From: an uncultured Bacteroidales bacterium
Lineage (GTDB): Bacteria; Bacteroidota; Bacteroidia; Bacteroidales; Paludibacteraceae
Assembly: GCA_900321605.1 (NCBI GenBank)
Contig: ONWR01000010.1
Coordinates: 51,620-115,619, forward strand
Length of the DNA: 64,000 bases
Direction: 5' to 3'
A model generated the notes under the pieces. That model worked only from the letters and a program-made list of their open reading frames with translations. It was not told the DNA's origin and made no database searches. A program made the translations under genes and the position numbers. Of this stretch, positions 3,062 to 58,162 are shown piece by piece. Position 1 is the first letter of the stretch, and each line of letters starts with the position of its first letter.

Positions 3062-3063
3062 TG

Positions 3064-19735: not shown

Positions 19736-19768
19736 GAATTGTGAATTGATAATTAAAATTTAACGATT

Positions 19769-42048: not shown

Positions 42049-42080
42049 GGAAAATAAATTAACAAAAAAACTAAGATAAA

Positions 42081-45000
42081 ATGAAACATTTCAAATTGTG
42101 GAATACGCTTTGCGGCTGGATGGTGTTTGCCGTAGCAGCAGCAACGTATCTCCTTACTATGGAACCCACGGCGTCCTTTTGGGATTGCGGTGAGTTCATC
42201 TCCAGCGCCTGGAAGTTAGACGTTGGACATCCGCCCGGAGCACCTTTCTTTATGCTGATGGGTCATTTCTTTAGTCTGTTTGCGTCTGACACGGCGCATG
42301 TGGCGATGTGTGTGAACGCCCTTTCGGCGCTTGCGAGTGCGTTTACGATCTTGTTCCTGTTCTGGACGATCACGGCGCTTGCGAGGAAGTTAGTAAAACC
42401 CCTCCCGACCTCCCCACAGGGGGAGGAGACAGGTTCGCTGTGGGCGGATCTGGGTGTTCTTGGAGCAGGAGTAGTGGGTGCTTTAGCTTACACTTTTAGC
42501 GACACATTCTGGTTCTCGGCTGTGGAAGGAGAAGTGTATGCAAGTTCGTCGCTGTTTACGGCTGTTGTTTTCTGGCTGATCCTGAAATGGGACGAGCAAG
42601 CAGACGAAGAGGGTAGTGACCGATGGTTGATTGCGATTGCTTATCTGATGGGTCTGTCTATCGGCGTTCACTTGCTGAACTTGCTGACGATTCCGGCTAT
42701 CGGATTGGTGTACTATTTCCGTCGTTACGAGTTCTCGTGGAAAGGATTGTTCTACGCGTTCTTGGCATCGTGTGCAATCCTGTTGGTTATCCTGTACGGT
42801 ATTATACCGGGCTTCCCGACCGTAGCCGGTTGGTTTGAGTTGCTGTTTGTCAACACTCTCGGTTGGCCGTTCAATACCGGTCTTGCCGTATATATCGTGC
42901 TGGCTCTTGTCGCACTGGGCTGGGCCATTTACGAGACGGCTGTGGATACCAACAAACTGCGTATTGCTATTTCCTGTACGGCGGCGTTTGCACTTTCCGG
43001 AGCGGCGTTCTTGTTCGAGAAATGGTGGATCGGCGTTCTGCTGTCGGTAGTGCTGTTGGCATTGCTGTTGGGTAAGAGCGAGATTATTCCTGCTCGTTGG
43101 TTGAACACAGCAACGCTGATGATTACCGTTATTCTGATCGGTTACAGCTCTTATGCGGCGTTGGTGATCCGTTCGAATGCGGACACACCGATGGATCAGA
43201 ACAGCCCTGATAATGTGTTCTCGCTGAAGTATTACCTCAACCGTGAGCAGTATGGCGACCGTCCTCTCTTCTATGGTCAGACGTACAATGCGCCGGTAGA
43301 GTTGCGAGTAGAAGGAAACATGTGTATTCCTGTAGAGAAACAAGGACACGCTCAGTATGCTCCGGCTCCTAAGAAAGAAGGCGAGAAAGACCATTATGTG
43401 ATCACGGGTTATAAGACCAATTATGTGTTCATGAAGGAGTTCTGTATGCTCTTTCCGCGCATGTATTCGAGTCAGGGAAGCCATGTGAACGCTTACAAAG
43501 AATGGGCCGATGTCAAAGGTAAACGAGTTCGCTATGACTACTGCGGACAGCAGAAGACAGATTATTGCCCGACGTTTGGCGAGAACCTAAAGTTCTTCTT
43601 CCGGTATCAAGTCAATTTCATGTATTGGCGTTACTTCATGTGGAACTTCGTGGGTCGTCAGAACGATTTGCAGTCGTATGGAGACATTACCAAAGGTAAC
43701 TGGATCTCGGGTATTGATTTCATTGATAACGCGATGTTAGGAGACCAGAGCTTGCTGCCGACTGAACTCAAAGAGAATAAGGGACATAATGTGTATTATT
43801 TCCTGCCGTTGTTGCTCGGTATCATCGGTATCGTTTGGCAGGTGAGCAAACGTGACAAAGACGGTAAGGCAGAAGGTTGGAAGAGCTTTACGCTGACTTT
43901 CCTGCTGTTCTTCCTGACGGGTCTTGCTATCGTGCTTTACCTCAATCAGACTCCGTATCAGCCGCGTGAACGTGACTACGCTTATGCGGGCTCGTTCTAT
44001 GCGTTCTGTATATGGATCGGTCTTGGCGTTTTGGCATTGATTGATTGGATCAATCAGTCGTTGGTCGATGGTCGTTGGTCGAAAGTCGTTAAAAATACCG
44101 TTGCGGTGGTTGTGTCGTTGGTATGTCTTGGTGTGCCGGCATTGATGGCACAACAGAACTGGGATGACCATGACCGTTCGGATCGTTATTCGTGTCGCGA
44201 TTTCGGAGCTAACTACTTGAAGTCGTGCGAGACACAGGCAATCCTTTTCTCCAACGGCGATAACGATACCTTCCCATTGTGGTACAACCAAGAGGTAGAG
44301 GAAGTGGGAACCGATTTGCGTGTTTGCAACCTGAGTTATCTTCAGACCGATTGGTATATAGCTCAGATGAAACGTCCGTACTATGAGTCCGCTGCGCTGC
44401 CTATTTCTTGGGAGTACAAGGATTTCATGCCGGGAGCCAATGAGATTGCTCGTGTGGACAACCGTTTGGGACAACCGATCAGCGTGAAGAAAGCGTTTGA
44501 TTTCCTGCGTTCGGATGATCCGCGTACGAAGACCCGTGAAGGCGATAACTATCTGCCTTCCGACCAGTTGTACGTAGAGACACCTGACGGCGAGCAGATC
44601 ATGCTCAAGAAAAAACGGATGTACACGCGTTCGGAGATGATGATCATGGAGATGTTGTCCACCAATAACTGGCAGCGTCCTATGTATTTCTGCGCGACAG
44701 TCGGTAACGACTACTATCTGGGTCTTGAGCCATGGATGGAGTTGACCGGTTTGGCTTATCGAATCACTCCGACCCGCAGTCGTGACGGACAGCCGCGTGT
44801 GAACAGCGAGCTGATGTATGAGAACATGCTGCATAAGTTCGCTTACGGTAATATGAACAAACCGGGTATCTATATCGACGAGAACCTGATGCGCATGTGC
44901 CGTACACACCGAATGATGTTTGCGCAGTTGGCAGAGCAGCTGATCCGTGAGAACCAACGCGAGAAAGCATTGGAGGTACTTGATTTTGCGGAAGAGCAGT

Positions 45001-45290
45001 TGCCGGGCTATAATATCCCGTACGACTACACTTCTGCTTCGATGGCGCAAATGTATTTCATGCTCAATCAAAACGAGAAAGCTCTTGCTATCATGGATAA
45101 TGTGGCAAATGGGTGCGTGGAGTATTTGCGTTTTGCAGCATCGCTCAATCGTCAGCAGAAACGCTCTATGGAGTCTTCTACGGGTCGTGAGGCGGCTATC
45201 TTAGGCTATGTGCTGCAGACCTGTGAGCGTTACGGACAGAACGAATTGGTGGAGAAATACTACGCCGATTATGCTGCGTACGCGAAATGA
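42081..45290 (+). CDS. DUF2723 polytopic membrane protein (GT-C-like)
   Basis: 1,069 residues. The N-terminal DUF2723 domain has the family start TMEPTASFWDCGEFISSAWK and LDVGHPPGAPFFMLMGHFFS, where the Asp-Cys-Gly-Glu resembles the catalytic acidic site of protein O-mannosyltransferase-like GT-C enzymes. About 12 helices lie before residue 350, with more around 560-690. A periplasmic C-terminal half follows, with TPYQPRERDYAYAGSFYAF and ILFSNGDNDTFPLWYNQEVE, and a TPR-like end. The role is unproven; lipid-linked sugar transfer to protein or glycan is plausible. Two repeat elements interrupt the gene in frame (42399-42428, 44053-44091). Confidence 0.88.
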   Translation: MKHFKLWNTLCGWMVFAVAAATYLLTMEPTASFWDCGEFISSAWKLDVGHPPGAPFFMLMGHFFSLFASDTAHVAMCVNALSALASAFTILFLFWTITALARKLVKPLPTSPQGEETGSLWADLGVLGAGVVGALAYTFSDTFWFSAVEGEVYASSSLFTAVVFWLILKWDEQADEEGSDRWLIAIAYLMGLSIGVHLLNLLTIPAIGLVYYFRRYEFSWKGLFYAFLASCAILLVILYGIIPGFPTVAGWFELLFVNTLGWPFNTGLAVYIVLALVALGWAIYETAVDTNKLRIAISCTAAFALSGAAFLFEKWWIGVLLSVVLLALLLGKSEIIPARWLNTATLMITVILIGYSSYAALVIRSNADTPMDQNSPDNVFSLKYYLNREQYGDRPLFYGQTYNAPVELRVEGNMCIPVEKQGHAQYAPAPKKEGEKDHYVITGYKTNYVFMKEFCMLFPRMYSSQGSHVNAYKEWADVKGKRVRYDYCGQQKTDYCPTFGENLKFFFRYQVNFMYWRYFMWNFVGRQNDLQSYGDITKGNWISGIDFIDNAMLGDQSLLPTELKENKGHNVYYFLPLLLGIIGIVWQVSKRDKDGKAEGWKSFTLTFLLFFLTGLAIVLYLNQTPYQPRERDYAYAGSFYAFCIWIGLGVLALIDWINQSLVDGRWSKVVKNTVAVVVSLVCLGVPALMAQQNWDDHDRSDRYSCRDFGANYLKSCETQAILFSNGDNDTFPLWYNQEVEEVGTDLRVCNLSYLQTDWYIAQMKRPYYESAALPISWEYKDFMPGANEIARVDNRLGQPISVKKAFDFLRSDDPRTKTREGDNYLPSDQLYVETPDGEQIMLKKKRMYTRSEMMIMEMLSTNNWQRPMYFCATVGNDYYLGLEPWMELTGLAYRITPTRSRDGQPRVNSELMYENMLHKFAYGNMNKPGIYIDENLMRMCRTHRMMFAQLAEQLIRENQREKALEVLDFAEEQLPGYNIPYDYTSASMAQMYFMLNQNEKALAIMDNVANGCVEYLRFAASLNRQQKRSMESSTGREAAILGYVLQTCERYGQNELVEKYYADYAAYAK
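42399..42428. repeat. GC-rich palindromic element, in frame in the DUF2723 gene
   Basis: About 30 bases with arms CTCCCC and GGGGAG around ACA. It encodes KPLPTSPQGEE between two membrane helices. The same element occurs in dsbD (same orientation) and murB (opposite orientation). Confidence 0.85.
44053..44091. repeat. 7-base tandem repeat inside the DUF2723 gene (gttggtc)
   Basis: Units atcagtc, gttggtc, gatggtc, gttggtc, gaaagtc, then gtta. It encodes NQSLVDGRWSKVVK in a loop between membrane helices. Same unit as the intergenic array at 39470. Confidence 0.85.
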
Positions 45291-45350
45291 GATTGAAGAT
45301 TTGAGAATTTGAAGATTTGAAAATTTGAAGATTTTAAAATTTGAAGATTA
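45291..45350. repeat. Degenerate gatttgaa-type tandem repeat
   Basis: Fills the entire gap between the DUF2723 stop and the CobW start: imperfect gaagattt and gaaaattt units. Same family as 3064 and 41985. Confidence 0.8.
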
Positions 45351-45351
45351 A

Positions 45352-46587
45352 ATGATAAGTGTAAATAAAATTCCGGTCTTGCTGCTAACCGGATATCTTG
45401 GTAGCGGCAAGACAACACTTCTCAACCGCATTCTGACGAATAACAAAGGTATTCGTTTTGCGGTGATCGTAAACGATATCGGAGAAGTGAATATTGATGC
45501 GTCGTTGATTCAGAAGGGCGGAGTAGTGTCCCAGAATGACGACTCGCTTGTGGCGCTTCAGAACGGCTGTATATGCTGCTCGCTGAAGATGGATCTGGTG
45601 TCTCAGCTGCATGATCTGTGTGCACAGAAAGCCTTTGATTATGTCGTGATAGAGGCTTCGGGTATCTGCGAACCGGCTCCTATAGCTCAGACGCTTTGCA
45701 GCTATGCGCAGATGGTTCCTCAGTTTGCCCAAGATGGTCTTCCTGTGCTCGATTGTATTTGCTCGGTGGTAGATGCGTTGCGTTTGCGTGACGAGTTCGA
45801 AGGCGGCGAGCAGTTGGCACACTACGTGCCGAAAGAGGAAGACCTTGCGGCACTTGTGATTGAGCAGATTGAGTTTAGCAATATTGTGTTGCTGAATAAG
45901 GCGTCGGAAGTAAGCGAAGAAGAGTTGGCGCATATTAAATCCATCGTTCGTGCTATTCAGCCGACCGCAGAGATTATTGAAACGAACTACTGCGATGTCG
46001 ATTTTGACAAGATTTTGAATACGCATATGTTCGATTTTGACAAGACTGCAACGTCGGCTGCTTGGATACAGGAAGTAGAGGATGCAACGCATCATCACCA
46101 CGATGATGACGATGACGACGATGATGAGGATGAGCATGAGCATCATCACCACCATGACCATGATCATGAACATGGTGGGCATGACCATGATCATGAACAT
46201 GGTGGGCATGACCATCTGGCAGAGTTCGGAATAGAGACTTATGTGTATTATGCGCGTAAGCCGTTCGATTTAGGACTGTTTGATGAGTTTGTGGCTGCTC
46301 ATTGGCCGAAGAATGTGATCCGATGTAAAGGAATGTGTTATTTTGCAGAAGAGTACGATATGTGCTATCTGTTTGAGCAAGCCGGAAGACAGTTCAATCT
46401 GCGCAAGGCAGGAGAGTGGTTTGCGACGATGCCGAAAGAGGAGTTGATGCAACTCATGGCAGATGATGCTCAGTTACGCAAAGACTGGGATGAGCAGTAC
46501 GGCGACCGAATGCAGAAACTCGTGTTCATCGGTCAACATCTGGACAAGCAGGCTTTGAAAACGGCTCTGGATAAGTGTTTGCAATAA
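45352..46587 (+). CDS. CobW/COG0523-family metal chaperone GTPase
   Basis: G3E-family GTPase, thought to deliver zinc or another metal to client proteins. Walker A LLTGYLGSGKTTLLNRIL, metal-binding NGCICCSLKMDL (CxCC), EASGICEPAPIAQTL and the NKxD-like LLNKASEV. A linker at about residues 245-290 is extremely His/Asp/Glu-rich (HHHHDDDDDDDDEDEHEHH and three HDHDHEHGG-type repeats) and should bind several metal ions. The C-terminal CobW_C domain includes FAEEYDMCYLFEQAGRQF. 411 residues. The alcohol dehydrogenase that follows needs a metal and may be a client; that is inference. Confidence 0.93.
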   Translation: MISVNKIPVLLLTGYLGSGKTTLLNRILTNNKGIRFAVIVNDIGEVNIDASLIQKGGVVSQNDDSLVALQNGCICCSLKMDLVSQLHDLCAQKAFDYVVIEASGICEPAPIAQTLCSYAQMVPQFAQDGLPVLDCICSVVDALRLRDEFEGGEQLAHYVPKEEDLAALVIEQIEFSNIVLLNKASEVSEEELAHIKSIVRAIQPTAEIIETNYCDVDFDKILNTHMFDFDKTATSAAWIQEVEDATHHHHDDDDDDDDEDEHEHHHHHDHDHEHGGHDHDHEHGGHDHLAEFGIETYVYYARKPFDLGLFDEFVAAHWPKNVIRCKGMCYFAEEYDMCYLFEQAGRQFNLRKAGEWFATMPKEELMQLMADDAQLRKDWDEQYGDRMQKLVFIGQHLDKQALKTALDKCLQ

Positions 46588-46599
46588 ATAACGGATTGT

Positions 46600-47748
46600 A
46601 TGCAAGGCAATTTTATATATCATAATCCCACGAAATTATATTTTGGAGAAGAGGCTTTGAAGTTTCTCAAGGACGAGTTACAGAACTTCGGTGAGCGCGT
46701 GCTGATCAATTACGGTAGCGGTAGTGTCAAACGCAGCGGTTTGTACGACGAGGTGATTGCTATCCTGCGTGAGGGCGGCAAGACGATTGTTGAGAACCAG
46801 GGTGTGATGTCCAACCCGACACTTGAGAAACTACGCGAGGGCGTGCGTATCGCGCGCGATAATAAGGTCGATTGGATCTTGGCTCTGGGAGGAGGAAGCG
46901 TTTGCGACTACTCGAAAGGTGTAGCGGCTTCTGCGTACTATGATGGCGATTATTGGCAGGCTTTCTGGCTTGAGGGTCAGCAACCGGCAGCAGATCAGCG
47001 GATTATCCCGGTGACCTGTATCCTGACGATGGCAGGAACCGGATCGGAGATGAACGGCGGATGTGTTATTACCGATGCCGAGAAGAACTATAAGACCGGT
47101 CATGTGTTTGACAGCCGTCTGATGCCGAAATTCTCGATCCTCAATCCGCGGTACACGATGACCGTTCCGATGGATCAGATGAAATCGGGTATCTACGATA
47201 TCATGAACCATATTTTTGAGCAGTATTTCTCGGGTGAGGATGACAATACGTCCGATTACATTGCCGAGGGACTGATGCGAGGGCTGATTGTGGCATCTCG
47301 TGCGGCAGTCAAGGATCCGCAGGATTATGAGGCTCGCAGTAATATAATGTGGACTGCCACTTGGGCACTTAATACGCTCATTAAGTGCGGAAAACGTCAA
47401 GATTGGATGGTTCATCAGATCGGTCACTCCATAGGCGCTTGGACACATGCTCCTCACGGTTATACCTTAGCTTCTGTGACGATGGCTTATTACAAAAGGG
47501 CGATGCAGTTTGGTCGTCCTAAGTTCGAGCGTTTTGCACAGAATGTATGGGGTGTGAAGAGTGCCGAAGAGGGACTTGAGGCTCTGAAGAACTGGATGAA
47601 AGAGATCGGTTTGCCGCTGACAATCAGTGAATTGGGCGCTAATGAGGCGATGATTGACGATATTGTCAGAACGACCAATATCTTCCCTGCCGGTTATATG
47701 GATTTGAAGCCGGAAGATGTCAAAGAGATACTCAAGGAGAGTTTGTAA
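46600..47748 (+). CDS. Iron-containing alcohol dehydrogenase (YqhD/BdhA-like)
   Basis: NAD(P)H-dependent aldehyde or butanol dehydrogenase of the group III family. FIYHNPTKLYFGEEALKFL start, GVMSNPTLEKLREGVRIAR, NAD loop ILALGGGSVCDYSKGVAA, TMAGTGSEMNGGCVITDAE, and metal ligands in YDIMNHIFEQYF and QIGHSIGAWTHAPHGYTLA. 382 residues. Twelve bases after the CobW stop. Likely reduces small aldehydes in fermentation. Confidence 0.93.
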   Translation: MQGNFIYHNPTKLYFGEEALKFLKDELQNFGERVLINYGSGSVKRSGLYDEVIAILREGGKTIVENQGVMSNPTLEKLREGVRIARDNKVDWILALGGGSVCDYSKGVAASAYYDGDYWQAFWLEGQQPAADQRIIPVTCILTMAGTGSEMNGGCVITDAEKNYKTGHVFDSRLMPKFSILNPRYTMTVPMDQMKSGIYDIMNHIFEQYFSGEDDNTSDYIAEGLMRGLIVASRAAVKDPQDYEARSNIMWTATWALNTLIKCGKRQDWMVHQIGHSIGAWTHAPHGYTLASVTMAYYKRAMQFGRPKFERFAQNVWGVKSAEEGLEALKNWMKEIGLPLTISELGANEAMIDDIVRTTNIFPAGYMDLKPEDVKEILKESL

Positions 47749-47766
47749 TTGTCGGAAGCCGGAGTC

Positions 47767-48114
47767 ATGGAAATAGTAGATTTGTTAGAATATAGCGATC
47801 GGCTCCAACTGCGGCAATGGTTCGAGGTCAATGCAGCAACGCAAAAGAGTTGTTGGGTCGCATTGTACCGCGGCAAGAAAAAGCCGGAGGGCGTGTGTCT
47901 GCCATATTTGGAAGTCGTCGAAGAGGCGCTTTGTTTCGGATGGATAGACTCCACGCTCAAACGTCTTCCGGACGGACGTTTGGCGCAACGTCTTTCTCCG
48001 AGACAGCAAAAAAGTCATTGGACGGAATTGAATAAGCAACGTTGTGCAGACCTTGAAGAGCGGGGATTGATGACCGAGTTGGGGCGCATCGCATTGCAAA
48101 AGGCAAATTTGTAG
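47767..48114 (+). CDS. YdeI/OmpD-associated family protein, C-terminally short
   Basis: The start is set at the ATG at 47767, not the TTG that directly follows the previous stop. The YdeI N-terminal half is clear: RQWFEVNAATQKSCWVALYR, YLEVVEEALCFGWIDSTLKR and LSPRQQKSHWTELNKQRC. The chain then ends at MTELGRIALQKANL, about 115 residues. Family members usually run to around 190, with a second helical domain. The missing part is not found in other frames downstream, so this is a truncation or a short subfamily. Function unknown. Confidence 0.75.
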   Translation: MEIVDLLEYSDRLQLRQWFEVNAATQKSCWVALYRGKKKPEGVCLPYLEVVEEALCFGWIDSTLKRLPDGRLAQRLSPRQQKSHWTELNKQRCADLEERGLMTELGRIALQKANL

Positions 48115-48135
48115 GATTTTTAACATAAAAATAGA

Positions 48136-48639
48136 ATGAAACGAATCATCAATCCATGGACTCAAACACCCGGGTATAACTGCTTCGGGTGTAGTCCGGA
48201 TAACCCGATCGGGACAAGGATGCGTTTCTTTGAGGACGGTGACGATATCGTCTCTATCTGGCGTCCGACGCAGAACCATCAGTCTTGGCTCAATACGCTT
48301 CATGGCGGTATTCAGGCCGTGCTACTGGACGAAGTATGCGGCTGGGTTGTGTTCCATAAGCTGCAAACAGCGGGAGTGACAGCCAAGATGGAGATGCGTT
48401 ACCATAAACCGGTTTCTACGCTGCAGGATTATATCAAACTGCGTGGGTACCTCAAAGAGATGCGTCGTAATGTGGCGATTGTGCAAGGCGAGTTGTACTC
48501 AGCGGAAGGGGAACTGTTATGCGAGTGTACGTGTACCTATTTCACTTTCCCGCAGGACAAAGCCAAAGAGAATATGGGCTATGTGCCCTCTGAAGTAGAA
48601 GAAAAAGAATATACCTTTGAAGAATGCTTGAATATGTAA
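48136..48639 (+). CDS. PaaI-like hotdog-fold thioesterase
   Basis: 167 residues. CFGCSPDNPIGTRMRFFEDG at the N-terminus and the hotdog helix LHGGIQAVLLDEVCGWVVFH, with the HGG(I)...D/E active-site region, then MEMRYHKPVSTLQDYIKLRG. Predicted to hydrolyse an acyl-CoA thioester; substrate unknown. The 3' end overlaps the PatB start by 16 bases in another frame. Confidence 0.88.
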   Translation: MKRIINPWTQTPGYNCFGCSPDNPIGTRMRFFEDGDDIVSIWRPTQNHQSWLNTLHGGIQAVLLDEVCGWVVFHKLQTAGVTAKMEMRYHKPVSTLQDYIKLRGYLKEMRRNVAIVQGELYSAEGELLCECTCTYFTFPQDKAKENMGYVPSEVEEKEYTFEECLNM

Positions 48640-49778
48640 ATCGTAAGGGCTCCGATTGCTATAAATGGGATTCGGAATGTGCCCAAGGCTGTCTGCCGTT
48701 ATGGATAGCAGACATGGATTTTGCTGCTGCAAAGCCTATTCGTGAGGCGATGCAACGCCGTCTTGATCATGGTGTTTTCGGTTATTCGATTGTGCCGCAG
48801 GCGAACTATGATGCTGTGGCTTCATGGTTTGAGCGCCGACACGGATGGAAGGGTATCAACCGTGATAATCTGTTGTACACCACCGCTGTTGTGCCTGCTA
48901 TCTCGGCTATTTTTGCGGCGTTGCAGGCAAGGAAAGGCAAGTGTTCGCCGCTTCGTGTGCTGACCTTCACACCGGCATACAACTGTTTCTTCTCTTGTAT
49001 TGAGAACATGGGCTGCGAGTTGGTTCCCTCTGCATTGGTGTTGAAAGACAACCGTTTTGAGATCAACTGGGAGGACGTGGAAGCGAAAGCCAAGGAGGCG
49101 GATGTGTTCCTGCTTTGTAATCCTCATAATCCGACCGGACGCGTGTGGACGAGGGATGAGTTGGAGCGTTTGGCAGCTATCATGCGTCGTGAGCACCTCT
49201 TTGTGTTATCGGACGAGATCCATTGCGAGTTTGCCTTCAAGGGGCATCCCTATACGCCTTTTGCTTCGATTGTGATCAACGACACGGATTTCTGCGTTTG
49301 TACTTCCGCCAGCAAGGCGTTTAACATAGCCGGATTGCTGTGTGCGAATATCTTCGTACCCAACAAAGAGCTCTTTGCGCAGATCAACCACGCGCTTGAG
49401 GTGCATGAAGTGAACGGACTTAATCCGTTTGGTTTGGTAGCGCAAGTGGCGGCTTACAATGAGTCCGAGGCATGGTTGGATGAGTTGAACGAATATGTCT
49501 ATGGTAACTACTGCTATCTGCGCGATTTCATCCGTACGGAACTGCCGATGTTGCAGATTCATGAGACGGAAGGAACGTACCTCGGATGGGTGAATATAGC
49601 CGCGCTTAAGATGTCGTCAGAGGCTTTCTGTGCGGATCTTGCCAAAAAGGCGCATGTGCTCTTTAACCCATCGGAGATGTATGGAGGCGAACATTATGTT
49701 CGTATCAATCTCGCTACCTCGCGTGAGGTATTGGAAGAAGCTTTGAATCACCTTAAACAATATATCCATGAACACTAA
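48624..49778 (+). CDS. patB: MalY/PatB-type cystathionine beta-lyase/aminotransferase
   Basis: PLP enzyme of fold type I, expected to cleave C-S bonds of cystathionine or cysteine. KGSDCYKWDSECAQGCLPLW then IADMDFAAAKPIREAM, FGYSIVPQANYDAVASWFER, LLCNPHNPTGRVWTRDEL, SDEIHCEFAF and the Schiff-base lysine in TSASKAFNIAGL. 384 residues. ATG at 48624 overlaps the previous gene by 16 bases, and the end overlaps nadE by 11 bases. Confidence 0.92.
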   Translation: MLEYVNRKGSDCYKWDSECAQGCLPLWIADMDFAAAKPIREAMQRRLDHGVFGYSIVPQANYDAVASWFERRHGWKGINRDNLLYTTAVVPAISAIFAALQARKGKCSPLRVLTFTPAYNCFFSCIENMGCELVPSALVLKDNRFEINWEDVEAKAKEADVFLLCNPHNPTGRVWTRDELERLAAIMRREHLFVLSDEIHCEFAFKGHPYTPFASIVINDTDFCVCTSASKAFNIAGLLCANIFVPNKELFAQINHALEVHEVNGLNPFGLVAQVAAYNESEAWLDELNEYVYGNYCYLRDFIRTELPMLQIHETEGTYLGWVNIAALKMSSEAFCADLAKKAHVLFNPSEMYGGEHYVRINLATSREVLEEALNHLKQYIHEH

Positions 49779-51699
49779 TTTCGGATTTGTGCGTGTTGCG
49801 GCTGCAGTGCCGACCATGCGCGTAGCAGACTGCCGCTACAATGCGGAGCAAATTAAGTTACAGATCGACGAGGCGATCGCTGAAGGCGTTGAGGTCATCT
49901 GTTTTCCTGAGTTGAGTATCACCGGCTATTCTTGTGCGGATCTGTTCTTCACGCAGGCTCTCCAGCAGAGTTCAATGCGTGAGTTGGAGTCGATATGCGA
50001 TTACACGCGTGGCAAAGCGATTATTGTGTTGGTGGGCGCTCCGCTGCAAGTGGATAACGACCTGTTCAACTGCGCGTTTGTGATGACAGACGGCGAAGTG
50101 ATGGGCGTTGTGCCTAAAGTCAACCTGCCGAACACCGGTGAGTTCTACGAGAAGAGATGGTTTACTTCCGGACGTGCCGCGCGCGAATATACGCCCGGAG
50201 GCATCGCTCCGAGGATACCGAAGATCGAGATATGGAGTGGAGAAGTGCCGTTTGGAACGGATCTGCTGTTCTGCACAAGGACCTATACCTTTGGTATAGA
50301 GATCTGTGAGGATCTGTGGTCACCGCTGCCTCCTTCTACTCAATTGGCTATTCAGGGAGCAGAGATCATCTTCAACCTCTCCTCGTCCAACTGCATCATC
50401 GGTAAGCACATCTTCCGCAAACAGATGATCAAGCAGCAGTCGGCACGCGTCCATTGCGGCTATGTCTATACCTCTTCCGGCGTCGGTGAGTCCACAACGG
50501 ATGTGGTATTCTCCGGTAGCACGTATATCGCAGAAAATGGTGATATACTGACCTTGGGCGAACGATTCCAACGTGAGAACACGATGATTATTCAGGAGAT
50601 AGATATAGAACGTTTGCGTACCGACAGACAGCGCAATACGAACTTCACAAAAGATAAAGCAGGCCACTACCGCCATATTAACGTAGCGCCTATTGATAGA
50701 GAAGAGGAGTGTACGGAGCCTATTCATCGTACTTTCTCGCCTTCGCCGTTCTTGCCCAAGAAAGGCAAAGAGGATCAGTACTGCATGGATGTGTTCTCTA
50801 TTCAGACGAGTGCTCTCGCGAGACGTTGGGAGCATACACACACGGATACGCTCGTATTAGGCATCTCCGGCGGTTTGGATAGTACGCTTGCTTTGTTGGT
50901 TTGCGTGCAGACGGCTGATCTGTTGGGCTATGACCGCGAGCGCATAGTGGGCGTGACGATGCCGGGATTCGGAACCAGCGACCGTACGTACCAGAACGCG
51001 CTGAATCTGATGAAAGAGTTGGGTATCACGCATCGGGAGATACCTATTCGCGAAGAAGCAACCCAACACATGAGCGACATCGGACATGATATCAGTCGTC
51101 ATGACGTGACGTACGAGAACGCGCAGGCGCGTATACGTACCTTAATATTAATGGATCTGGCTAACGAACTGAACGGTTTGGTGGTCGGAACAGGTGACTT
51201 GAGCGAATTGGCACTGGGATGGGCTACGTACAACGGCGACCAGATGTCCATGTACGGCATCAATGCCGGAATACCAAAGACGCTTGTTCGGTATCTGGTC
51301 AGCTATGCGGCGCAGAATCTGTATGGCGAACCTTTGCGGAGTATTCTGCTCGATATCGTGGACACGCCGGTTTCACCGGAACTTCTGCCGACGGATGAGC
51401 ATGGAGAGATTGCTCAAAAGACCGAGGACAAGGTGGGTCCGTATGAACTGCATGATTTCTTCTTATACTATTTTATGCGCTTTGGTTTCACGCGTGAGAA
51501 GATCAAGTACATGGCTATCAGAGCGTTCGAGGATCAGTATGACGAAGAGACCATTGACAAATGGCTGAATGTGTTCATGCGCCGTTTCTGCCAGCAGCAG
51601 TTCAAACGCAGTTGTATGCCGGATGGTCCGAAAGTCGTTAGCGTGAGCCTGAGTCCGCGTGGCGATTGGAGAATGCCAAGCGATGCGTGCTGTATTTAA
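49768..51699 (+). CDS. nadE: Glutamine-dependent NAD+ synthetase
   Basis: Last step of NAD+ synthesis: amidation of deamido-NAD+ with ATP, using glutamine as ammonia donor. The N-terminal nitrilase-fold amidase carries the triad Glu in CFPELSITGYSC, Lys in VPKVNLPNTGEFYEKRWF and Cys in FGIEICEDLWSP. The C-terminal synthetase has the PP-loop LGISGGLDSTLALLV (about residues 364-378), then GTGDLSELALGWATYNGDQM and KVGPYELHDFFLYYFMRFGF. 643 residues, the full two-domain form. An 11-base overlap with patB. Confidence 0.97.
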   Translation: MNTNFGFVRVAAAVPTMRVADCRYNAEQIKLQIDEAIAEGVEVICFPELSITGYSCADLFFTQALQQSSMRELESICDYTRGKAIIVLVGAPLQVDNDLFNCAFVMTDGEVMGVVPKVNLPNTGEFYEKRWFTSGRAAREYTPGGIAPRIPKIEIWSGEVPFGTDLLFCTRTYTFGIEICEDLWSPLPPSTQLAIQGAEIIFNLSSSNCIIGKHIFRKQMIKQQSARVHCGYVYTSSGVGESTTDVVFSGSTYIAENGDILTLGERFQRENTMIIQEIDIERLRTDRQRNTNFTKDKAGHYRHINVAPIDREEECTEPIHRTFSPSPFLPKKGKEDQYCMDVFSIQTSALARRWEHTHTDTLVLGISGGLDSTLALLVCVQTADLLGYDRERIVGVTMPGFGTSDRTYQNALNLMKELGITHREIPIREEATQHMSDIGHDISRHDVTYENAQARIRTLILMDLANELNGLVVGTGDLSELALGWATYNGDQMSMYGINAGIPKTLVRYLVSYAAQNLYGEPLRSILLDIVDTPVSPELLPTDEHGEIAQKTEDKVGPYELHDFFLYYFMRFGFTREKIKYMAIRAFEDQYDEETIDKWLNVFMRRFCQQQFKRSCMPDGPKVVSVSLSPRGDWRMPSDACCI

Positions 51700-51715
51700 A
51701 TGAGAAATTGTGAAA

Positions 51716-52669
51716 ATGAAAAAATACGAAAATATATCCCTTCTGCCGTATAACACGTTCGGCATAGATGTCAAAGCGCGGCTGTTCATCGAGTACTACT
51801 CGCTGGACGAGTTGCGGAAAGTGCTGAAAGAGCATAAAGGCGAGCAGATCTTGCATATAGGGCAAGGGTCGAATCTGCTCTTTACCCACGATTTCAACGG
51901 AATAATTCTGCATTCCGGCATGGCTCGTGCGCGTTTTATAGACGATGAGACAGTGGAGGCGCAGAATGGCTTGCGGCTCGATGATCTCATCGCTCAACTG
52001 ACCGACATGGCATACTGCGGCATGGAGAAACTAAGTCTTATTCCGGGCGAAGTGGGCGCTTCGGCAGTACAGAATGTCGGGGCGTACGGCGTAGAAGCGA
52101 AAGATGTGATAGAGCGTGTTTATACGATGGCTGTGGAGACGCAGGAAGAGCGGGTCTTTACCAACGAAGAGTGCAAGTTCGGTTATAGGGATAGTATTTT
52201 CAAGCATGAACTGAAAGGTAAGTATATTGTCACTTCGGTTGTCTATAAGGTCAAACCCGGCGAGGCATCCAAGACCCGCGAGGAGATTATCCAGACGCGC
52301 ATGGCGAAACTGCCGACAGTGGGTGAGGTGGGTTCCGCCGGCTCGTTCTTTATGAATCCGTTTGTGCCGGAAGAGAAAGCGAAGGAATTGTTGGAACTCT
52401 ATCCCGATATGCCGCACTTTGAAACTCCCTCCCTTGAGGGGAGGGCTGGGGTGGGGTTATTTAAGATCCCTGCTGCATGGCTAATCGAGCAATGCGGATG
52501 GAAAGGTAAGAAGCTCGGCGGTGCGCAAGTGTGGCCCAAACAGCCGCTTGTCATCGTCAATGCGAATAACGCTACGCCCGAAGACATCATCGCCCTTGCT
52601 GCACAAGTCAGCGCAAGCGTCAAAGAGAAATTCGGCATCGACATTCACCCTGAAGTGAACTATATTTAA
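51716..52669 (+). CDS. murB: UDP-N-acetylmuramate dehydrogenase
   Basis: FAD enzyme reducing UDP-GlcNAc-enolpyruvate to UDP-MurNAc, the second step of peptidoglycan precursor synthesis. The start is ATG 51716; the upstream GTG is not needed. LLPYNTFGIDVKARLFIEYY, LHIGQGSNLLFT, LSLIPGEVGASAVQNVGAYG, FGYRDSIFKHELKGKY, VGSAGSFFMNPF (catalytic Ser) and AAWLIEQCGWKGKKLGGAQV. Between VPEEKAKELLELYPDM and the AAWLIEQ helix is an in-frame repeat element (TPSLEGRAGVG, 52425-52457) not expected in the family. Confidence 0.96.
   Translation: MKKYENISLLPYNTFGIDVKARLFIEYYSLDELRKVLKEHKGEQILHIGQGSNLLFTHDFNGIILHSGMARARFIDDETVEAQNGLRLDDLIAQLTDMAYCGMEKLSLIPGEVGASAVQNVGAYGVEAKDVIERVYTMAVETQEERVFTNEECKFGYRDSIFKHELKGKYIVTSVVYKVKPGEASKTREEIIQTRMAKLPTVGEVGSAGSFFMNPFVPEEKAKELLELYPDMPHFETPSLEGRAGVGLFKIPAAWLIEQCGWKGKKLGGAQVWPKQPLVIVNANNATPEDIIALAAQVSASVKEKFGIDIHPEVNYI
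52425..52457. repeat. GC-rich palindromic element, in frame in murB
   Basis: 33 bases, inverted relative to the copies in the DUF2723 gene and dsbD. Its reverse complement shares an uninterrupted cagccctcccc core followed by caagggagggag with the dsbD copy. It encodes about eleven additional residues in a loop. Confidence 0.88.
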
Positions 52670-52703
52670 TTGTAAATTGTGAATTGTAAATTGTGAATTG
52701 AAA
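52669..52703. repeat. 7-base tandem repeat (attgtaa/attgtga)
   Basis: Five consecutive 7-base units (attgtaa, attgtga, attgtaa, attgtga, attgaaa) exactly fill the murB-murA gap. Same family, on the other strand, as the attcaca array at 18199. Confidence 0.92.
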
Positions 52704-54011
52704 ATGGCTACATTTGTAATAGAAGGCGGACATAAATTACATGGATCTATCACTCCGCAAGGCGCTAAGAATGAGGCGCTTCAAGTGCTCTGCGCTGTTC
52801 TGTTGACCCAAGAGACGGTCGTGATTGATAATCTCCCGAATATATTGGATGTGAACAATCTGATTGATTTGCTCGCATCTATTGGCGTGACGGTGGAGAA
52901 GCTGTCCAAAGGCAAGTTCGCTTTCACAGCGGCTAATCTCGACACAGCGTACCTGCGGAGTGCGGATTTCCTCAAGAAATGCAATAAACTCCGTGGCTCG
53001 GTCATGCTCATTGGCCCGCTTTTGGCGCGTCTGGGCGAAGTAACGTACGCCAAGCCCGGTGGAGATAAAATCGGTCGTCGGCGTTTGGACACGCATTTCC
53101 AAGGAATGGTGAACCTCGGCGCGACATTCACGTACGACCAAGACTTGCTCGCTTATCGTTTTGACGGTAAGCACCTCAAAGGCGCGTATATGCTCTTGGA
53201 CGAAGCGTCTGTCACCGGAACAGCAAACATCATTATGGCGTCTGTCCTTGCCGAAGGAACCACTACCATCTACAATGCAGCCTGCGAACCGTACGTGCAG
53301 CAACTTTGCCGTCTCTTGAATAACATGGGCGCGAAGATCAGCGGAGTGGGTTCAAACCTGCTGACCATCGAAGGCGTGAAATCGCTTCACGGCGCGCAGC
53401 ATAAACTCCTGCCGGATATGATTGAAGTCGGTTCGTTTATCGGCATGGCTGCTATCACCGGTTCTGAACTGCGTATCAAAGAAGCGGGAATAAAAGACCT
53501 TGGAATCATTCCCGATGCTTTCCGTCGTTTGGGTATCCGCATTGAGGAAGAAGGAGACGATCTAGTTATTCCGGCGCAAGAGCACTATCAGATTGAATCG
53601 TTCCTCGATGGCTCTATTCTTACGGTTGCCGATGCCCCGTGGCCGGGTCTGACGCCGGACTTGCTGTCTGTCCTTCTCGTGGTAGCCACACAGGCAAAAG
53701 GCTCTGTGCTCATTCACCAGAAGATGTTCGAATCCCGTCTTTTCTTTGTGGATAAACTGATTGATATGGGCGCGCAGATCATCCTCTGTGATCCTCACCG
53801 CGCAGTAGTCGTCGGCCACGACCATACCCGCCAGCTCAAACGCAATAACATGACTTCTCCCGACATCCGTGCGGGTATTGCTATGCTCATTGCCGCCATG
53901 TCTGCAGAAGGCACAAGTCGCATCGACCACATCGACCAGATCGACCGTGGTTATGAAGACATCGAAAACCGCCTCAACGCCCTCGGTGCTTGCATAAGGA
54001 GAGAGGAGTAA
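52704..54011 (+). CDS. murA: UDP-N-acetylglucosamine 1-carboxyvinyltransferase
   Basis: First committed step of peptidoglycan synthesis: transfer of enolpyruvate from PEP to UDP-GlcNAc. ATG at 52704 chosen over the TTG in the repeat. TPQGAKNEALQVLCAVLLTQ, LRGSVMLIGPLLARLGEVTY, KPGGDKIGRRRLDTHFQGMV, EASVTGTANIIMASVLAEGT, DMIEVGSFIGMAAI and PWPGLTPDLLSVLLVVATQA. Asp121 occupies the position of the fosfomycin-target cysteine (Cys115 in E. coli), so natural fosfomycin insensitivity is predicted. 435 residues. MurB and MurA adjacent suits a cell-wall operon. Confidence 0.96.
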   Translation: MATFVIEGGHKLHGSITPQGAKNEALQVLCAVLLTQETVVIDNLPNILDVNNLIDLLASIGVTVEKLSKGKFAFTAANLDTAYLRSADFLKKCNKLRGSVMLIGPLLARLGEVTYAKPGGDKIGRRRLDTHFQGMVNLGATFTYDQDLLAYRFDGKHLKGAYMLLDEASVTGTANIIMASVLAEGTTTIYNAACEPYVQQLCRLLNNMGAKISGVGSNLLTIEGVKSLHGAQHKLLPDMIEVGSFIGMAAITGSELRIKEAGIKDLGIIPDAFRRLGIRIEEEGDDLVIPAQEHYQIESFLDGSILTVADAPWPGLTPDLLSVLLVVATQAKGSVLIHQKMFESRLFFVDKLIDMGAQIILCDPHRAVVVGHDHTRQLKRNNMTSPDIRAGIAMLIAAMSAEGTSRIDHIDQIDRGYEDIENRLNALGACIRREE

Positions 54012-54050
54012 TTGTAGTGTGCAAATTTTGCATATAACAAGAAAATAAGA

Positions 54051-55037
54051 ATGAACGAAAAACCCATTGAAAATAGAGGTGAGATTATCATCTATCGTGC
54101 GGAAGACAACACGGTACAACTCGATGTGCGCATGGAGAACGAAACCGTGTGGCTGTCCGCCGCGCAGATGGCTCAATTGTTTGGCAAGGAAGAATCAAAC
54201 ATTCGCCGTCATATAATTAATGTTTTCCGCGACGAAGAAGTAGAGCGCGAGAATAACGTGCATTTTTTACACGTTAATGGGGTTAAGAAGCCTGTCCCAT
54301 TTTACTCGTTAGATGTAATCCTTTCTATTGGATACCGCGTTAACTCCAAGCGTGCTATCGCTTTCCGACAGTGGTCAACAAAGATTCTAAAAGAATTTAT
54401 TGTCAAAGGCTACGCCATCAACGAAAAGATTCGTCGTGAGCAGTTGTCGGATTTGCGGCAGTTGGTTCAGATTGTGGGTCGAACGGTACAAAGCAAAGCA
54501 GTAGAGAGTGAGGATGAGACGCAAGCTATTTTTGATGTCGTCTTGGATTACACGTACGCATTGGACACGCTCGATAATTATGATTACGAGCGTCTGACCG
54601 TCAAAGAGACCACGCCCGAAGAACGATTCCATGCGACATACGAGAATGCTATGCAAACGATTAGTGCGTTGCGTGAGAAATTCGGCGGTAGTACGTTGTT
54701 CGGAAACGAAAAAGACGATTCGTTCAAAAGCAGTATAGGTCAGATTTATCAGACCTTTGGAGGCAAAGATCTCTATCCGAGTGTGGAGGAGAAAGCGGCG
54801 ATGTTGTTGTATTTAGTGACAAAGAACCATTCATTCTCTGACGGCAACAAACGCATTGCAGCAACTTTGTTCCTCTGGTTCTTGAACAACAACGGCATCC
54901 TCTATCGCGAAGATGGCACCAAGCGTTTGGCTGATAACACCCTTGTCGCACTAACCCTTATGATTGCCGAGAGTCGTACAGAAGAAAAAGACACCATGGT
55001 CAAAGTAGTGGTAAACCTGATAAACCAAAAGAACTAA
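54051..55037 (+). CDS. RhuM-like protein with C-terminal Fic/Doc domain
   Basis: 328 residues. N-terminal RhuM (virulence protein) domain: ETVWLSAAQMAQLFGKEESN and IRRHIINVFRDEE with NNVHFLHVNG, then FYSLDVILSIGYRVNSKRAI and RQWSTKILKEFIVKGYAINE. The C-terminal Fic/Doc domain has NHSFSDGNKRIAATLFLWFL, with His260 and the Asn-Lys-Arg ending of the Doc class (not Gly-Arg). Doc-type proteins phosphorylate or AMPylate translation factors and act as toxins. No Phd-like antitoxin ORF is adjacent, so it may self-inhibit or act as a regulator. Such genes are mobile in Bacteroidales. Confidence 0.92.
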   Translation: MNEKPIENRGEIIIYRAEDNTVQLDVRMENETVWLSAAQMAQLFGKEESNIRRHIINVFRDEEVERENNVHFLHVNGVKKPVPFYSLDVILSIGYRVNSKRAIAFRQWSTKILKEFIVKGYAINEKIRREQLSDLRQLVQIVGRTVQSKAVESEDETQAIFDVVLDYTYALDTLDNYDYERLTVKETTPEERFHATYENAMQTISALREKFGGSTLFGNEKDDSFKSSIGQIYQTFGGKDLYPSVEEKAAMLLYLVTKNHSFSDGNKRIAATLFLWFLNNNGILYREDGTKRLADNTLVALTLMIAESRTEEKDTMVKVVVNLINQKN

Positions 55038-55060
55038 AACTATAAAAACAACACTCGATA

Positions 55061-55981
55061 ATGAGAAAACTATATTCAATATTGAGAGGATTTTTTGCAA
55101 TAATAGGCATTTTGTCTTCTGTGGCAATAATACTATTCTGGGCAAAAAAGGATGACTTTACTATTTCTGTTGATAGTTTGTATAGTCTGTACGAGCAACG
55201 CGTAGACACTCTTCGTGCGGCTGGAAGTTTCGAACCGGACACAGCAAACTTCTCATTTACTATCATTCAAGACACTTTGCAAGCAAAGAAAATCAAAGAA
55301 TATTTCTGTTTGGACACTCTTTATTCAGAGTCCGATGACACTTGGACAAAAGCGCTTGCAATTGGCAATTTTGTTGCAACCAATATCCCTCACGCTAATC
55401 AGACTAAATGGCCCGAACAAAAGAATGCTATCGGTCTTTGGGAATACACTAGGGATGTAGAGCCGGCTTTCAATTGTCGCTTGCATAGTATTCTGACGTT
55501 TGAGTTGTTGTTAGCAGCCGATATTCCTGCACGTTTTGTAACTTGTTTGCCGCAAGATAAAGATGATAACGATTGCCATGTCGTCAATGAAGTTTGGCTC
55601 CCCGAAAAGCAAAAATGGGTCATGTTAGATACCGATATGGGAGGACATTATGTGACGGACAAACAAGGTAATCTGCTGTCTTTGAGAGAGATAAGAGAAC
55701 ACTATGTAGGTGGAAAGAAAATGCTTATGTATCCCGAGTTTAAGAACGGCAGCAACAAGATGAATTATTACTACGCTTATTTGGCGAAGGATACCTATTG
55801 GTTCCAATGTTGGGGAACAATGTCCTATTTTCAAGAAGAATGGAATAAAGAAGATGTTGTCCGCAATAGTTATATTGTCCTTGTCCCGAAAGGCTTTGAA
55901 CCGTTTAACATCGGAGGAGGCAACACTATTACGACAAACGCAGATCTCTTCTGGTCAGAGCCTAAAATATTGCTGAAATAA
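55061..55981 (+). CDS. Membrane-anchored transglutaminase-like protein
   Basis: 306 residues with an N-terminal signal anchor (GFFAIIGILSSVAIILFWA). The papain-like core has Cys in AFNCRLHSILTFELLLAADI, His in DCHVVNEVWLPEKQKW and Asp in VMLDTDMGGHYV, the usual transglutaminase-superfamily triad. Likely faces the periplasm and acts as a peptidase or amidase; substrate unknown. 23 bases after the Fic gene, with no separate promoter seen. Codon use is AT-richer than in murA. Confidence 0.78.
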   Translation: MRKLYSILRGFFAIIGILSSVAIILFWAKKDDFTISVDSLYSLYEQRVDTLRAAGSFEPDTANFSFTIIQDTLQAKKIKEYFCLDTLYSESDDTWTKALAIGNFVATNIPHANQTKWPEQKNAIGLWEYTRDVEPAFNCRLHSILTFELLLAADIPARFVTCLPQDKDDNDCHVVNEVWLPEKQKWVMLDTDMGGHYVTDKQGNLLSLREIREHYVGGKKMLMYPEFKNGSNKMNYYYAYLAKDTYWFQCWGTMSYFQEEWNKEDVVRNSYIVLVPKGFEPFNIGGGNTITTNADLFWSEPKILLK

Positions 55982-56101
55982 TGTACATTAAATGAAAGCG
56001 AAGTGGGTGAATATAGTGGATAGTTTTCAAAACCTCAATCATAAAACAGACGATTCAAAATAGATAAAACCATTAAAGTAAATAATCCCATTTACCTTCT
56101 T

Positions 56102-56134
56102 GACACGGCAAAAACACGGCAACGACACGGCATC
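56102..56134. repeat. 11-base tandem repeat (gacacggcaac)
   Basis: Three consecutive 11-base units (gacacggcaaa, aacacggcaac, gacacggcatc) in the 210-base gap before the next gene. The rest of this gap is AT-rich with no recognised signal. Confidence 0.88.
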
Positions 56135-56191
56135 GACCTATAGGGTCAATACAAGGTAAGTATAATAATCAACTAAAATTTTAAAACGAAA

Positions 56192-56530
56192 ATGGCGCAA
56201 GCAGAATTAAATATAACTATTGACAAACTATCTGGTAAGATCTACGGAAACAGCGATGTGTATATTGCGAATCGTAACGGAAAAACGGTTATAAGTCATT
56301 ATCCCAAACATCGTGATCCGAATTCACTCACGCCACATCAGCGTGACCTGAACACTTCTTTTGCCCAAATATCCAAGCAGGCAAAACTCGAACTCACAGA
56401 TCCCGAAAAACGTGCCACTTGGCAGCAGCGTTACGACGAATACAAAGCCAATTATAAACCATCGGAAAAATACTATTTTACCCTCCGTGGATTTGTAATA
56501 GCGCAACTCTCAAAACAAATCAGCAAATGA
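56192..56530 (+). CDS. Small hypothetical protein
   Basis: 112 residues, no signal peptide. Begins LNITIDKLSGKIYGNSDVYI; the middle is polar and helical (LTDPEKRATWQQRYDEYKAN) and the end is aromatic (YYFTLRGFVIAQLSKQ). I recognise no family. Its stop overlaps the dsbD start by four bases (ATGA), which supports real translation. Confidence 0.6.
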   Translation: MAQAELNITIDKLSGKIYGNSDVYIANRNGKTVISHYPKHRDPNSLTPHQRDLNTSFAQISKQAKLELTDPEKRATWQQRYDEYKANYKPSEKYYFTLRGFVIAQLSKQISK

Positions 56531-58158
56531 AAAGAATATTATTTATCTTATTTGTGTGCTTGCCTTTATATGTGGCAGCGCAGATGGTACAACCTGTTCA
56601 CTGGAGTGGAGAAGATAGAGGGGATAGCGTGCGGATACGGGCGACAGTGGACGAGGGATGGCATATGAGCATTCTCGAAATGGGAGAGTTCATGTTTACA
56701 CAGGAATACAAGGATTCCTTTGTGATGACTGTCGCTAAAACGGAAATGGCGCCTATTCGGTTTAACGCGTGCAACGATGTGATGTGTACTGCGCCGGAAG
56801 TGTGGAGCTATGAGGAGAAAACCCATCTCCAGCCCTCCCCACAAGGGAGGGAGAATATTTCCGCGGGGGAAGATGGTTGCACAGACTCAGTTACTGGTAA
56901 TAGATCTCTTTGGCTTATCTTCCTGTTGGGATTATTGGGAGGATTGTTGGCAATCTTCACGCCTTGCGTGTGGCCGATTATTCCGATGACGGTGAGCTTC
57001 TTCTTGAAGAAAGGCGGCGGACTGAAGGATGCTGTTCTTTATGGGCTGAGTATCGTGATCCTTTATGTGGGATTAGGATTGTTGGTGACGATTCTCTTTG
57101 GCGCTTCGGCGCTTAACGAGATGAGTACCAACGCGGTAGTGAATATTGTGTTCTTCCTGATCTTGGTGATTTTTGCCCTTTCGTTCTTCGGATTGTTCGA
57201 AATCACTTTGCCGGACAGCTGGTCCACCGCATTGGACAGCAAAGCGCGGAGTACAGGCGGTTTCCTGAGTATTCTGCTGATGGCGTTTACGTTAGTGATA
57301 GTCTCTTTCTCCTGTACGGGACCAATTATTGGCACGCTGTTGGTAGAAGCGGCAGGAAAGTCTTTATTGGCTCCGGCTATAGGAATGTTGGGCTTTGCGA
57401 TTGCGCTCGCTTTGCCTTTCTCGCTGTTTGCTATGTTCCCTCAGTGGCTCAAACAGGCTCCTAAGTCAGGTGACTGGATGACGAGTTTCAAAGTGGTGTT
57501 GGCGTTCCTTGAGTTGGCGCTTTCGCTGAAGTTCCTGAGTGTGGCAGACATGGCATATGGGTGGGGTATATTGCCGAGATGGCTCTTTATTGCGATATGG
57601 ATCGTTTGCTTCCTGGGCATAGGAATCTATCTTATATGGGATATATGGAGCGTATCGACCCCACGTAAAATCATCCGTGCGATCGTGATCATCCCATCCC
57701 TGGCCTTTGCGTTTTACCTGGCACCGGGTCTTCGCGGCGCGCCGGTAAAAGCGATCAGCGCTTTTGCGCCTCCTATGGAGATTGAAGGGCGCGTCGTCTT
57801 TAACGATTATGAAGAGGGAATGGCTTATGCTCGTCAGACAGGCAAACCGGTGCTCATCGATTTTACCGGTTATGGATGTGTGAACTGCCGTAAGATGGAA
57901 GCGTTTGTGTTGGATGACGACAGTGTCAAAGCACGGTTAAAGAACTATGTCTTCATTGAACTGTATGTAGATGATCGTTTGGACAGAGACCATGACGGCG
58001 AGAGTGAAGGAACAGAGAACAGCCGTTTGCAGCGTGAGCGTTTTGGTTCGAACGCTCAGCCGTACTTCGTTCAACTCGACCCACAAGGAAATCAGGTAGC
58101 CGAGCCGATGGCGTTTACCACCGACCCGATGGAGTTTATCGAATGGCTGAGATATTAA
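56527..58158 (+). CDS. dsbD: Thiol:disulfide interchange protein DsbD-like
   Basis: Moves electrons from cytosolic thioredoxin across the inner membrane to periplasmic thiols. Signal peptide, a short DsbC/D-binding-type N-domain (20-95), then eight helices with the redox cysteines in FTPCVWPIIPMTVSFF and VSFSCTGPIIGTLLVEAAGK. The C-terminal thioredoxin domain has IDFTGYGCVNCRKMEAFVL (CVNC). 543 residues. The N-domain and first helix are joined by an unusual segment (LQPSPQGRENI) encoded by a palindromic repeat at 56822-56853. ATGA overlap with the gene before. Confidence 0.93.
   Translation: MKRILFILFVCLPLYVAAQMVQPVHWSGEDRGDSVRIRATVDEGWHMSILEMGEFMFTQEYKDSFVMTVAKTEMAPIRFNACNDVMCTAPEVWSYEEKTHLQPSPQGRENISAGEDGCTDSVTGNRSLWLIFLLGLLGGLLAIFTPCVWPIIPMTVSFFLKKGGGLKDAVLYGLSIVILYVGLGLLVTILFGASALNEMSTNAVVNIVFFLILVIFALSFFGLFEITLPDSWSTALDSKARSTGGFLSILLMAFTLVIVSFSCTGPIIGTLLVEAAGKSLLAPAIGMLGFAIALALPFSLFAMFPQWLKQAPKSGDWMTSFKVVLAFLELALSLKFLSVADMAYGWGILPRWLFIAIWIVCFLGIGIYLIWDIWSVSTPRKIIRAIVIIPSLAFAFYLAPGLRGAPVKAISAFAPPMEIEGRVVFNDYEEGMAYARQTGKPVLIDFTGYGCVNCRKMEAFVLDDDSVKARLKNYVFIELYVDDRLDRDHDGESEGTENSRLQRERFGSNAQPYFVQLDPQGNQVAEPMAFTTDPMEFIEWLRY
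56822..56853. repeat. GC-rich palindromic element, in frame in dsbD
   Basis: About 32 bases, arms CCCTCCC and GGGAGGG around a short loop. It encodes THLQPSPQGREN in the linker before the first membrane helix. Best match is the reverse complement of the murB copy, with only four differences over 32 positions by eye. Confidence 0.88.
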
Positions 58159-58162
58159 GATG

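Follow-up and report, generated by a model that had tools for sequence, protein, structure and literature searches.

Background

Repeats of the BoxC type were discovered in the 1990s, and protein-coding palindromes are known mainly from Rickettsia and Wolbachia. Here we describe a short palindromic repeat found in three unrelated genes of a 64,000-nucleotide (nt) stretch of DNA from an uncultured Bacteroidales bacterium of the family Paludibacteraceae (contig ONWR01000010.1; the whole stretch is referred to as the window). The repeat works like a protein-coding palindrome and, judged by its sequence, belongs to the BoxC-type triplex repeats, for which this is an unexpected place.

The BoxC/PIT/TM intrastrand-triplex motif is reported from Escherichia coli and from more than 260 genomes, with 23 copies in E. 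coli MG1655, always intergenic (PMC4666352). The same paper reports for the E. coli motif neither a correlation with gene classes nor promoter or terminator activity, and still names neither a mobile gene nor a clear function for BoxC-type repeats (PMC4666352). The repeat considered here agrees with this description in its three-block layout, in the similar sequences of its arm and stem and in its inverted pairs, and likewise no associated mobile gene has been found. The difference is in location, since BoxC is intergenic in E. coli, while about three quarters of the Bacteroidales copies are coding.

Rickettsia palindromic elements are described as palindromic repeats of about 105-150 bp residing in frame within conserved unrelated genes (PMC2229807, PMC10969869). 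An earlier note on this DNA had likened the outcome to these elements, and the likeness is supported by the in-frame inserts in unrelated conserved genes. Still, the present repeat is 34 nt long, has the triplex-type layout, resides in Bacteroidales and shares its loops with other repeat families; it behaves like a Rickettsia palindromic element but is not one, being set apart by size, layout and host.

With repetitive extragenic palindromic (REP) sequences and bacterial interspersed mosaic elements (BIME), mobilized by REP-associated tyrosine transposases (RAYT), the repeat has in common a short palindrome, high copy number and occasional inverted pairs. It differs from them in that its own genome has no Y1_Tnp domain, in being not mainly extragenic, and in lacking the GTAG/CGTC end tag in its consensus. 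Among the papers listed by our literature searches, none was seen to report BoxC-type repeats located inside genes, or palindromes coding for protein in Bacteroidales.

The repeat family in the genome

The three copies in the window are located at 42394..42427 (+) in a TMEM260-like/DUF2723 gene (42081..45290, +; Pfam PF11028, E 1.5e-76), at 52426..52459 (-), that is, inverted, in murB (51710..52669, +; Pfam MurB_C, E 2.5e-29; best E against MurB chains of the PDB 2.8e-55), and at 56819..56852 (+) in dsbD (56527..58158, +; Pfam DsbD_TM and thioredoxin-like). The corresponding peptides are VKPLPTSPQGEE, TPSLEGRAGVGL and KTHLQPSPQGRE. The boundaries of the copies and their scores (40.4, 51.6 and 48.2 bits, respectively) were set by the covariance model R1, built from 27 copies of the own genome, the three from the window among them. 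Thus the three elements pointed out earlier are present at their places, with edges shifted by a few bases in the model, and all three are in frame. The count of about four differences between the murB and dsbD copies is also borne out, as these are 88% complementary over 34 nt. The dsbD copy is N-terminal to the DsbD_TM domain, whose Pfam match begins at residue 129. The core CCTCCCN(2-8)GGGAGG occurs three times in the window, compared with a mean of 0.01 and a maximum of one in 100 shuffled sequences. A scan of the window with Rfam yielded no structured-RNA match at the gathering score, and a known structured RNA is rejected as the identity of the element.

The own genome (2,315,634 bases in 64 contigs, 94.9% complete) contains far more copies than the three initially noticed. 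The exact-core pattern is found at 27 places, while the reversed-pattern control yields none, and the covariance model identifies 53 places at E<=1, of which 40 have E<=0.0023, the matches past these best 40 being weaker. Forty-five of the 53 matches, and 35 of the 40 best ones, fall within open frames scoring as gene-like. The whole-genome count proposed earlier thus gives a largely coding dispersed palindromic repeat. Here and below, the coding label is assigned by a codon score trained on 25 open reading frames (ORFs) of the window, together with a stop-to-stop frame, so a few copies labeled coding are upstream of the real start (probably the first copy in locus L018 and possibly the one in L013; genomes, contigs and loci are cited by our G, C and L labels).

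The host genes encode conserved proteins, in which the repeat is retained in frame. Among 41 host ORFs, 40 were scanned against Pfam (the omitted one is a second view of the M20 peptidase gene), and 37 of the 40 matched a family at E<=1e-5. Hosts with matches at E<=0.02 include MurB, MurD (two copies), a MurF-Alr fusion, LysS, SerS, DapB, MnmA, QueA, an RlmL-like methyltransferase, TatD, class-3 FBPase, signal peptidase, an M20 peptidase with two copies, polyprenyl synthase and DsbD; weaker matches are located in IspD (E 0.74) and another Mur ligase (E 0.25).

Structure and relationship to BoxC-type repeats

The repeat is 34 nt long, with the consensus AAACCCCnCCCCnACCCTCCCCACAAGGGAGGGA, and consists of a pyrimidine block, a spacer, a second pyrimidine block, a short loop and a complementary purine block, which is the layout of a BoxC-type repeat. 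The second and third blocks form a hairpin, the stem positions being paired in 87-99% of 247 distinct 34-mers, with two-sided changes at indices 19/27 (C-G to T-A, 38 copies) and 15/31 (12 copies). Moreover, nucleotides of the first block are associated with those of the stem in the triplex register, in particular at indices 5/27 (odds ratio 34, p 2e-15) and 9/31 (odds ratio 25, p 3e-8). Register 0 is the best of seven, with mean phi 0.195 as compared with -0.123 to 0.083 in the shifted ones.

A subfamily copy is 88-91% identical over 31-34 nt to the first-listed E. coli places, and a search of 5426 E. coli genomes with the 34-nt subfamily copy yields 6236 matching places, distributed over 3802 genomes; in 3098 of 3803 records the identity of the best place is 90-95%. 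The E-values of individual matches are weak (0.2-0.8 for those five that were listed), and these places are sequence matches, not equated one by one with published BoxC copies. All 60 listed E. coli places have no annotated feature, being homologous, not independent, places. By layout and sequence, the repeat is of the BoxC/PIT intrastrand-triplex type, with the triplex itself predicted.

Distribution across genomes

The presence of the repeat is lineage-specific. Within the genus, a copy at E<=1e-4 is found in 61 of the 151 genomes, a number that includes the own genome, with at most 47 copies counted (46 candidate stretches scored per genome), and 18 of 36 congeners searched at E<=1e-3 have up to 76 copies. 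In other families of the order, one of 24 genomes is positive (G038, nine copies), and elsewhere in the phylum six of 394 genomes have one to three copies (17 candidates scored per genome). Most of the searched genomes are incomplete, many-contig assemblies, and the surveys of more than 40 genomes used stricter filters with few candidates scored per genome, so that these counts are lower bounds. A pattern scan of contigs yielded at least 114 stretches, and the 80 loci listed are assigned to Bacteroidales, Paludibacteraceae, Bacteroidia or Tannerella. Where named among the loci listed, the sources are ruminants and their gut, or pig; the named relatives are metagenome-assembled genomes from gut and rumen. 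In the explanation that we prefer, the repeat has spread within a single Bacteroidales genus and continues to insert both into genes and into the DNA between genes.

Presence and absence in orthologues

Twelve own-genome sites in 11 genes were compared with 8-24 orthologues each, and the copy is missing from most of these. Counting the own genome, 25 of 41 have a recognized MurB orthologue, and none of the other 24 orthologues has the repeat; the region of the insert comprises 24 residues in the own protein and 16-17 in 18 of the 24 orthologues. Among nine relatives, the DsbD copy is clearly common to G021 only, while G022 has what looks like a decayed copy. At the DUF2723 site, eight of 11 relatives have a short loop and G036 a slightly longer one; the peptide found there in G021 is related to that of the own genome, and the one in G002 is not. 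The orthologue comparison suggested earlier for these three proteins thus shows the segment to be absent from most of the orthologues examined. Copies common to orthologues are seen in signal peptidase (G002, probably G022), an M28 peptidase (G034) and a methyltransferase (G021, probably G022), and, among other loci, in a gene at C45:78178, with two further orthologues.

In the larger set of 177 coding copies described below, an orthologue with 0.50-0.98 flank identity exists in a different locus for 118 copies (self-matches excluded); for 77 of these an orthologue is shorter. In 52 cases it is shorter by at least five residues, the net differences being spread over 5-17 residues.

Coding share and reading frames

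Two samples were used to estimate the coding share. In the first, comprising unique copies with enough flank across the fetched loci, 177 of 239 copies are coding (31 of 36 in the own genome and 146 of 203 in others), as compared with 945 of 1195 random positions in the same loci. In the second, gene-blind sample, derived from the 80 loci listed from the contig pattern scan, the numbers are 74 of 102 and 984 of 1200, respectively. Both differences are towards a slight depletion in genes (Fisher p 0.09 and 0.02), and enrichment in genes is therefore rejected, the coding share being close to random.

The 177 coding copies comprise 105 in the same strand as the gene and 72 in the opposite one, and the six frames are used very unevenly (56/41/36/32/8/4 for same-strand phases 2 and 1, opposite-strand phases 0 and 2, same-strand phase 0 and opposite-strand phase 1; chi-square p 3e-13), while random positions are nearly even. 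By our reading, the consensus is stop-free in all six frames, save for a 5' TAA variant with a stop in same-strand phase 0; the little-used frames would give peptides of the PPHKGG and PPLWGG type. As two of the six frames are nearly unused, the bias points to filtering on the translated product following insertion. When the two flanks of each copy were matched to a single ORF, 154 of 161 copies were in frame; this result is not relied on, since the database contains overlapping loci of the same genomes and coding copies are in frame by definition.

Protein loops and their reuse by other repeats

The own MurB was modeled with AlphaFold (20 sequences; mean predicted local distance difference test score, pLDDT, 87.2; predicted template modeling score 0.84). 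In the model the insert is a coil, at residues 239-249 between two short strands, and residues 241-244 within it are the sole segment of at least three residues with pLDDT below 50. The loop or linker placement proposed in the earlier note holds at the closely inspected sites, as predicted for MurB by this model. Coding copies would thus be read as protein, in loops that seem to be tolerant.

The same loops are reused by other repeats. The MurB loop has an octamer-type tandem array in G034, of a type dispersed through the genus, and a different array in G015. In the FPGRVW loop of a methyltransferase, the palindrome is present in the own genome and in G021, apparently also in G022; the same loop has tandem arrays in G034, G006, G035 and G032. 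In other genes, the corresponding spot is occupied in relatives by in-frame arrays such as (GGAAAAT)n, (AAAGTCG)n, (ATGTACA)n and (AATCGAC)n. At 12 sites, tandem arrays are found in 16 of 134 site-relative pairs as compared with 55 of 3354 control windows (Fisher p 5e-9), and palindromes in 4 of 134 and 7 of 3354, respectively (p 6e-4); in these tests the pairs and control windows are not independent and the tandem-array score is loose. The length variation of relatives at the 12 sites has a median percentile of 0.92 and a mean of 0.80, and in a wider set, 46 copies collapsed into 15 groups, the median is 0.83 and the mean 0.73.

Heptamer arrays of this kind are comparable to the STRR (short tandemly repeated repetitive) sequences, a name used in cyanobacteria. 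Like the palindrome, they are short, dispersed and in frame within the same loops, while they differ in the kind of sequence and are mostly intergenic, with 85 of 219 tandem arrays coding by the same codon score.

Since unrelated tandem repeats occupy the same loops, the loop may be as special as the element. A wider reading, which we put forward tentatively and would not favor over its negation, is that permissive loops are repeatedly overwritten by the short repeats of the genome itself, triplex palindromes in one species and tandem arrays of 7-8-base units in another. If true, loop evolution in these proteins would be driven by templated copying of non-coding repeats, and not by a mobile element equipped with an enzyme of its own. 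The same observation bears on the earlier proposal of an element tuned to insert into coding DNA, which is unsupported: there is no enrichment in genes, frames seem to be filtered afterwards, the net length of the inserts is variable, and in congeners these loops are occupied by unrelated tandem repeats of 7-8 bases. The scale of the repeat had been understated and its design overstated.

As a separate observation, L116 (G026) and L118 (G009) have in their MurB loop an in-frame insert of about 100 nt with the peptide VGAPSVNQRSVCDGESGGTSCPVDLAERYQHHNLVAER, identical between the two and unrelated to the repeat. As the two species are otherwise different, it is either a third repeat family or a transfer.

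The BoxC-type repeat, intergenic in E. coli, resides here within dozens of apparently working genes. A gut-bacterial genus with many species and patchy copy numbers provides dozens of natural pairs of essential enzymes with and without the insert, making testable both spread without a known transposase and the conversion of non-coding DNA into protein loops. Annotation and modeling are affected as well, since the inserted residues are not conserved protein sequence.

Mechanism and alternative explanations

The explanation we prefer, with a probability of about two thirds, is that a BoxC/PIT-type triplex repeat has multiplied in the genus by copying without a dedicated transposase, followed by selection for in-frame, tolerated inserts. 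New copies would arise when, provoked by the DNA structure, a repeat at another place is used as the template to fill a replication or repair gap, in many cases with the loss of a few bases of the target, and selection would retain the events that leave an open frame in a loop tolerating extra residues, with no host benefit required. Templated copying is favored by the lack of an enzyme candidate, by target replacement and by variable net lengths. In particular, in the pair of empty and filled sites with the most similar flanks (0.96; L162 vs L258), target bases are replaced with a net gain of 30 nt, and other pairs show other net lengths, few of them having near-identical flanks.

Several observations weigh against this explanation. 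No insertion has been watched, and the templated-copying step is purely what we infer. The five remaining third-strand positions show weak or no association (p 0.05-1), and the association as a whole may come partly from subfamily descent, the relatedness of copies being uncorrected. Length is not variable at two of the 12 focal sites (percentiles 0.15 and 0.46) or in two of the 14 groups shown from the wider set (percentile 0.00), and later indels in drifting loops could be an alternative source of variable lengths. The 38 empty sites, as compared with other windows, show no excess likeness to the repeat (mean percentile 0.57 in the inserted orientation, p 0.15), so no microhomology requirement is seen and microhomology targeting is unsupported. 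Ku (PF02735) was found in none of the 41 genomes, with only B. subtilis positive among 14 controls, so that classical Ku end-joining does not account for the spread. Finally, the copy-rich G018 and G035 (about 50 copies) have weak partial matches to Y1_Tnp.

The last point bears on the main alternative, a non-autonomous REP- or MITE-like (miniature inverted-repeat transposable element) transposon, moved in trans by an unrecognized transposase, with the in-frame loop bias due to selection only. It is consistent with the near-uniform 34-nt copies in both orientations and in inverted pairs, with patchy, burst-like copy numbers from 0 to 76, and with a site, seen in L206 (near 7376) and L214, where two genomes have the repeat in opposite orientations. 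Of the 41 genomes of the genus, 16 match the Y1_Tnp profile (PF01797), and in 12, G018 and G035 among them, the match exceeds the cut-off, but these matches do not follow copy number: the four best genomes (G027, G009, G019 and G010) have 1, 0, 0 and 0 copies, and no match is found in the own genome, in G034 (76 copies) or in G021 (44 copies), while five of 14 control genomes are positive. RAYT mobilization is therefore rejected. Variable net lengths and the unrelated tandem arrays in the same loops also argue against a transposon, which we regard as possible, though rather unlikely. Retention of copies for a useful DNA or RNA structure in genes (mRNA stability, translation pausing or replication control) would agree with the co-variation of the stem and the putative third strand (the first block) across copies; it is improbable, as no functional class of hosts stands out by eye, orthologues manage without the copy, both orientations are used (105 and 72 coding copies, as given above), and E. 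coli BoxC is reported to show neither a correlation with gene classes nor activity as promoter or terminator (PMC4666352). Least of all do we expect ancestral protein sequence or a codon-composition artefact, with old loops merely looking alike. The encoded loops are indeed rich in proline and glycine, and MurB loops of several relatives read SPQG, but the same DNA occurs across several frames, on both strands and in unrelated genes, most orthologues have no copy, and the chance expectation for the core in the window is 0.01.

Other repeats and neighboring sequences

The DUF2723 gene also has a heptamer-like tandem repeat (AGTCGTTGGTCG...) at 44056..44091 (+), in frame, with the peptide QSLVDGRWSKVV, similar to an array at 39480-39515. 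Octamer arrays of the TTGAAGATT type, mostly intergenic, are located at 41988-42068, 45290-45350, 3046-3126 and 62440-62484, with near copies at many places of congeners, chiefly G034 and G002 among those listed. Another dispersed repeat, of about 50-70 bp, is found at G000:C45:70353-70423 (L145:4354-4424); it is 88-100% identical at several places of G030, and G021 has three adjacent copies.

An inverted pair of 123-nt repeats (18198-18320 and 19632-19754), 82% complementary and 1.3 kb apart, flanks an ORF at 18340-19602. The stretches 49761-54045 and 56620-58172 are 90-91% identical to G021, while neighboring matched stretches are about 79% identical, which suggests recombination between species.

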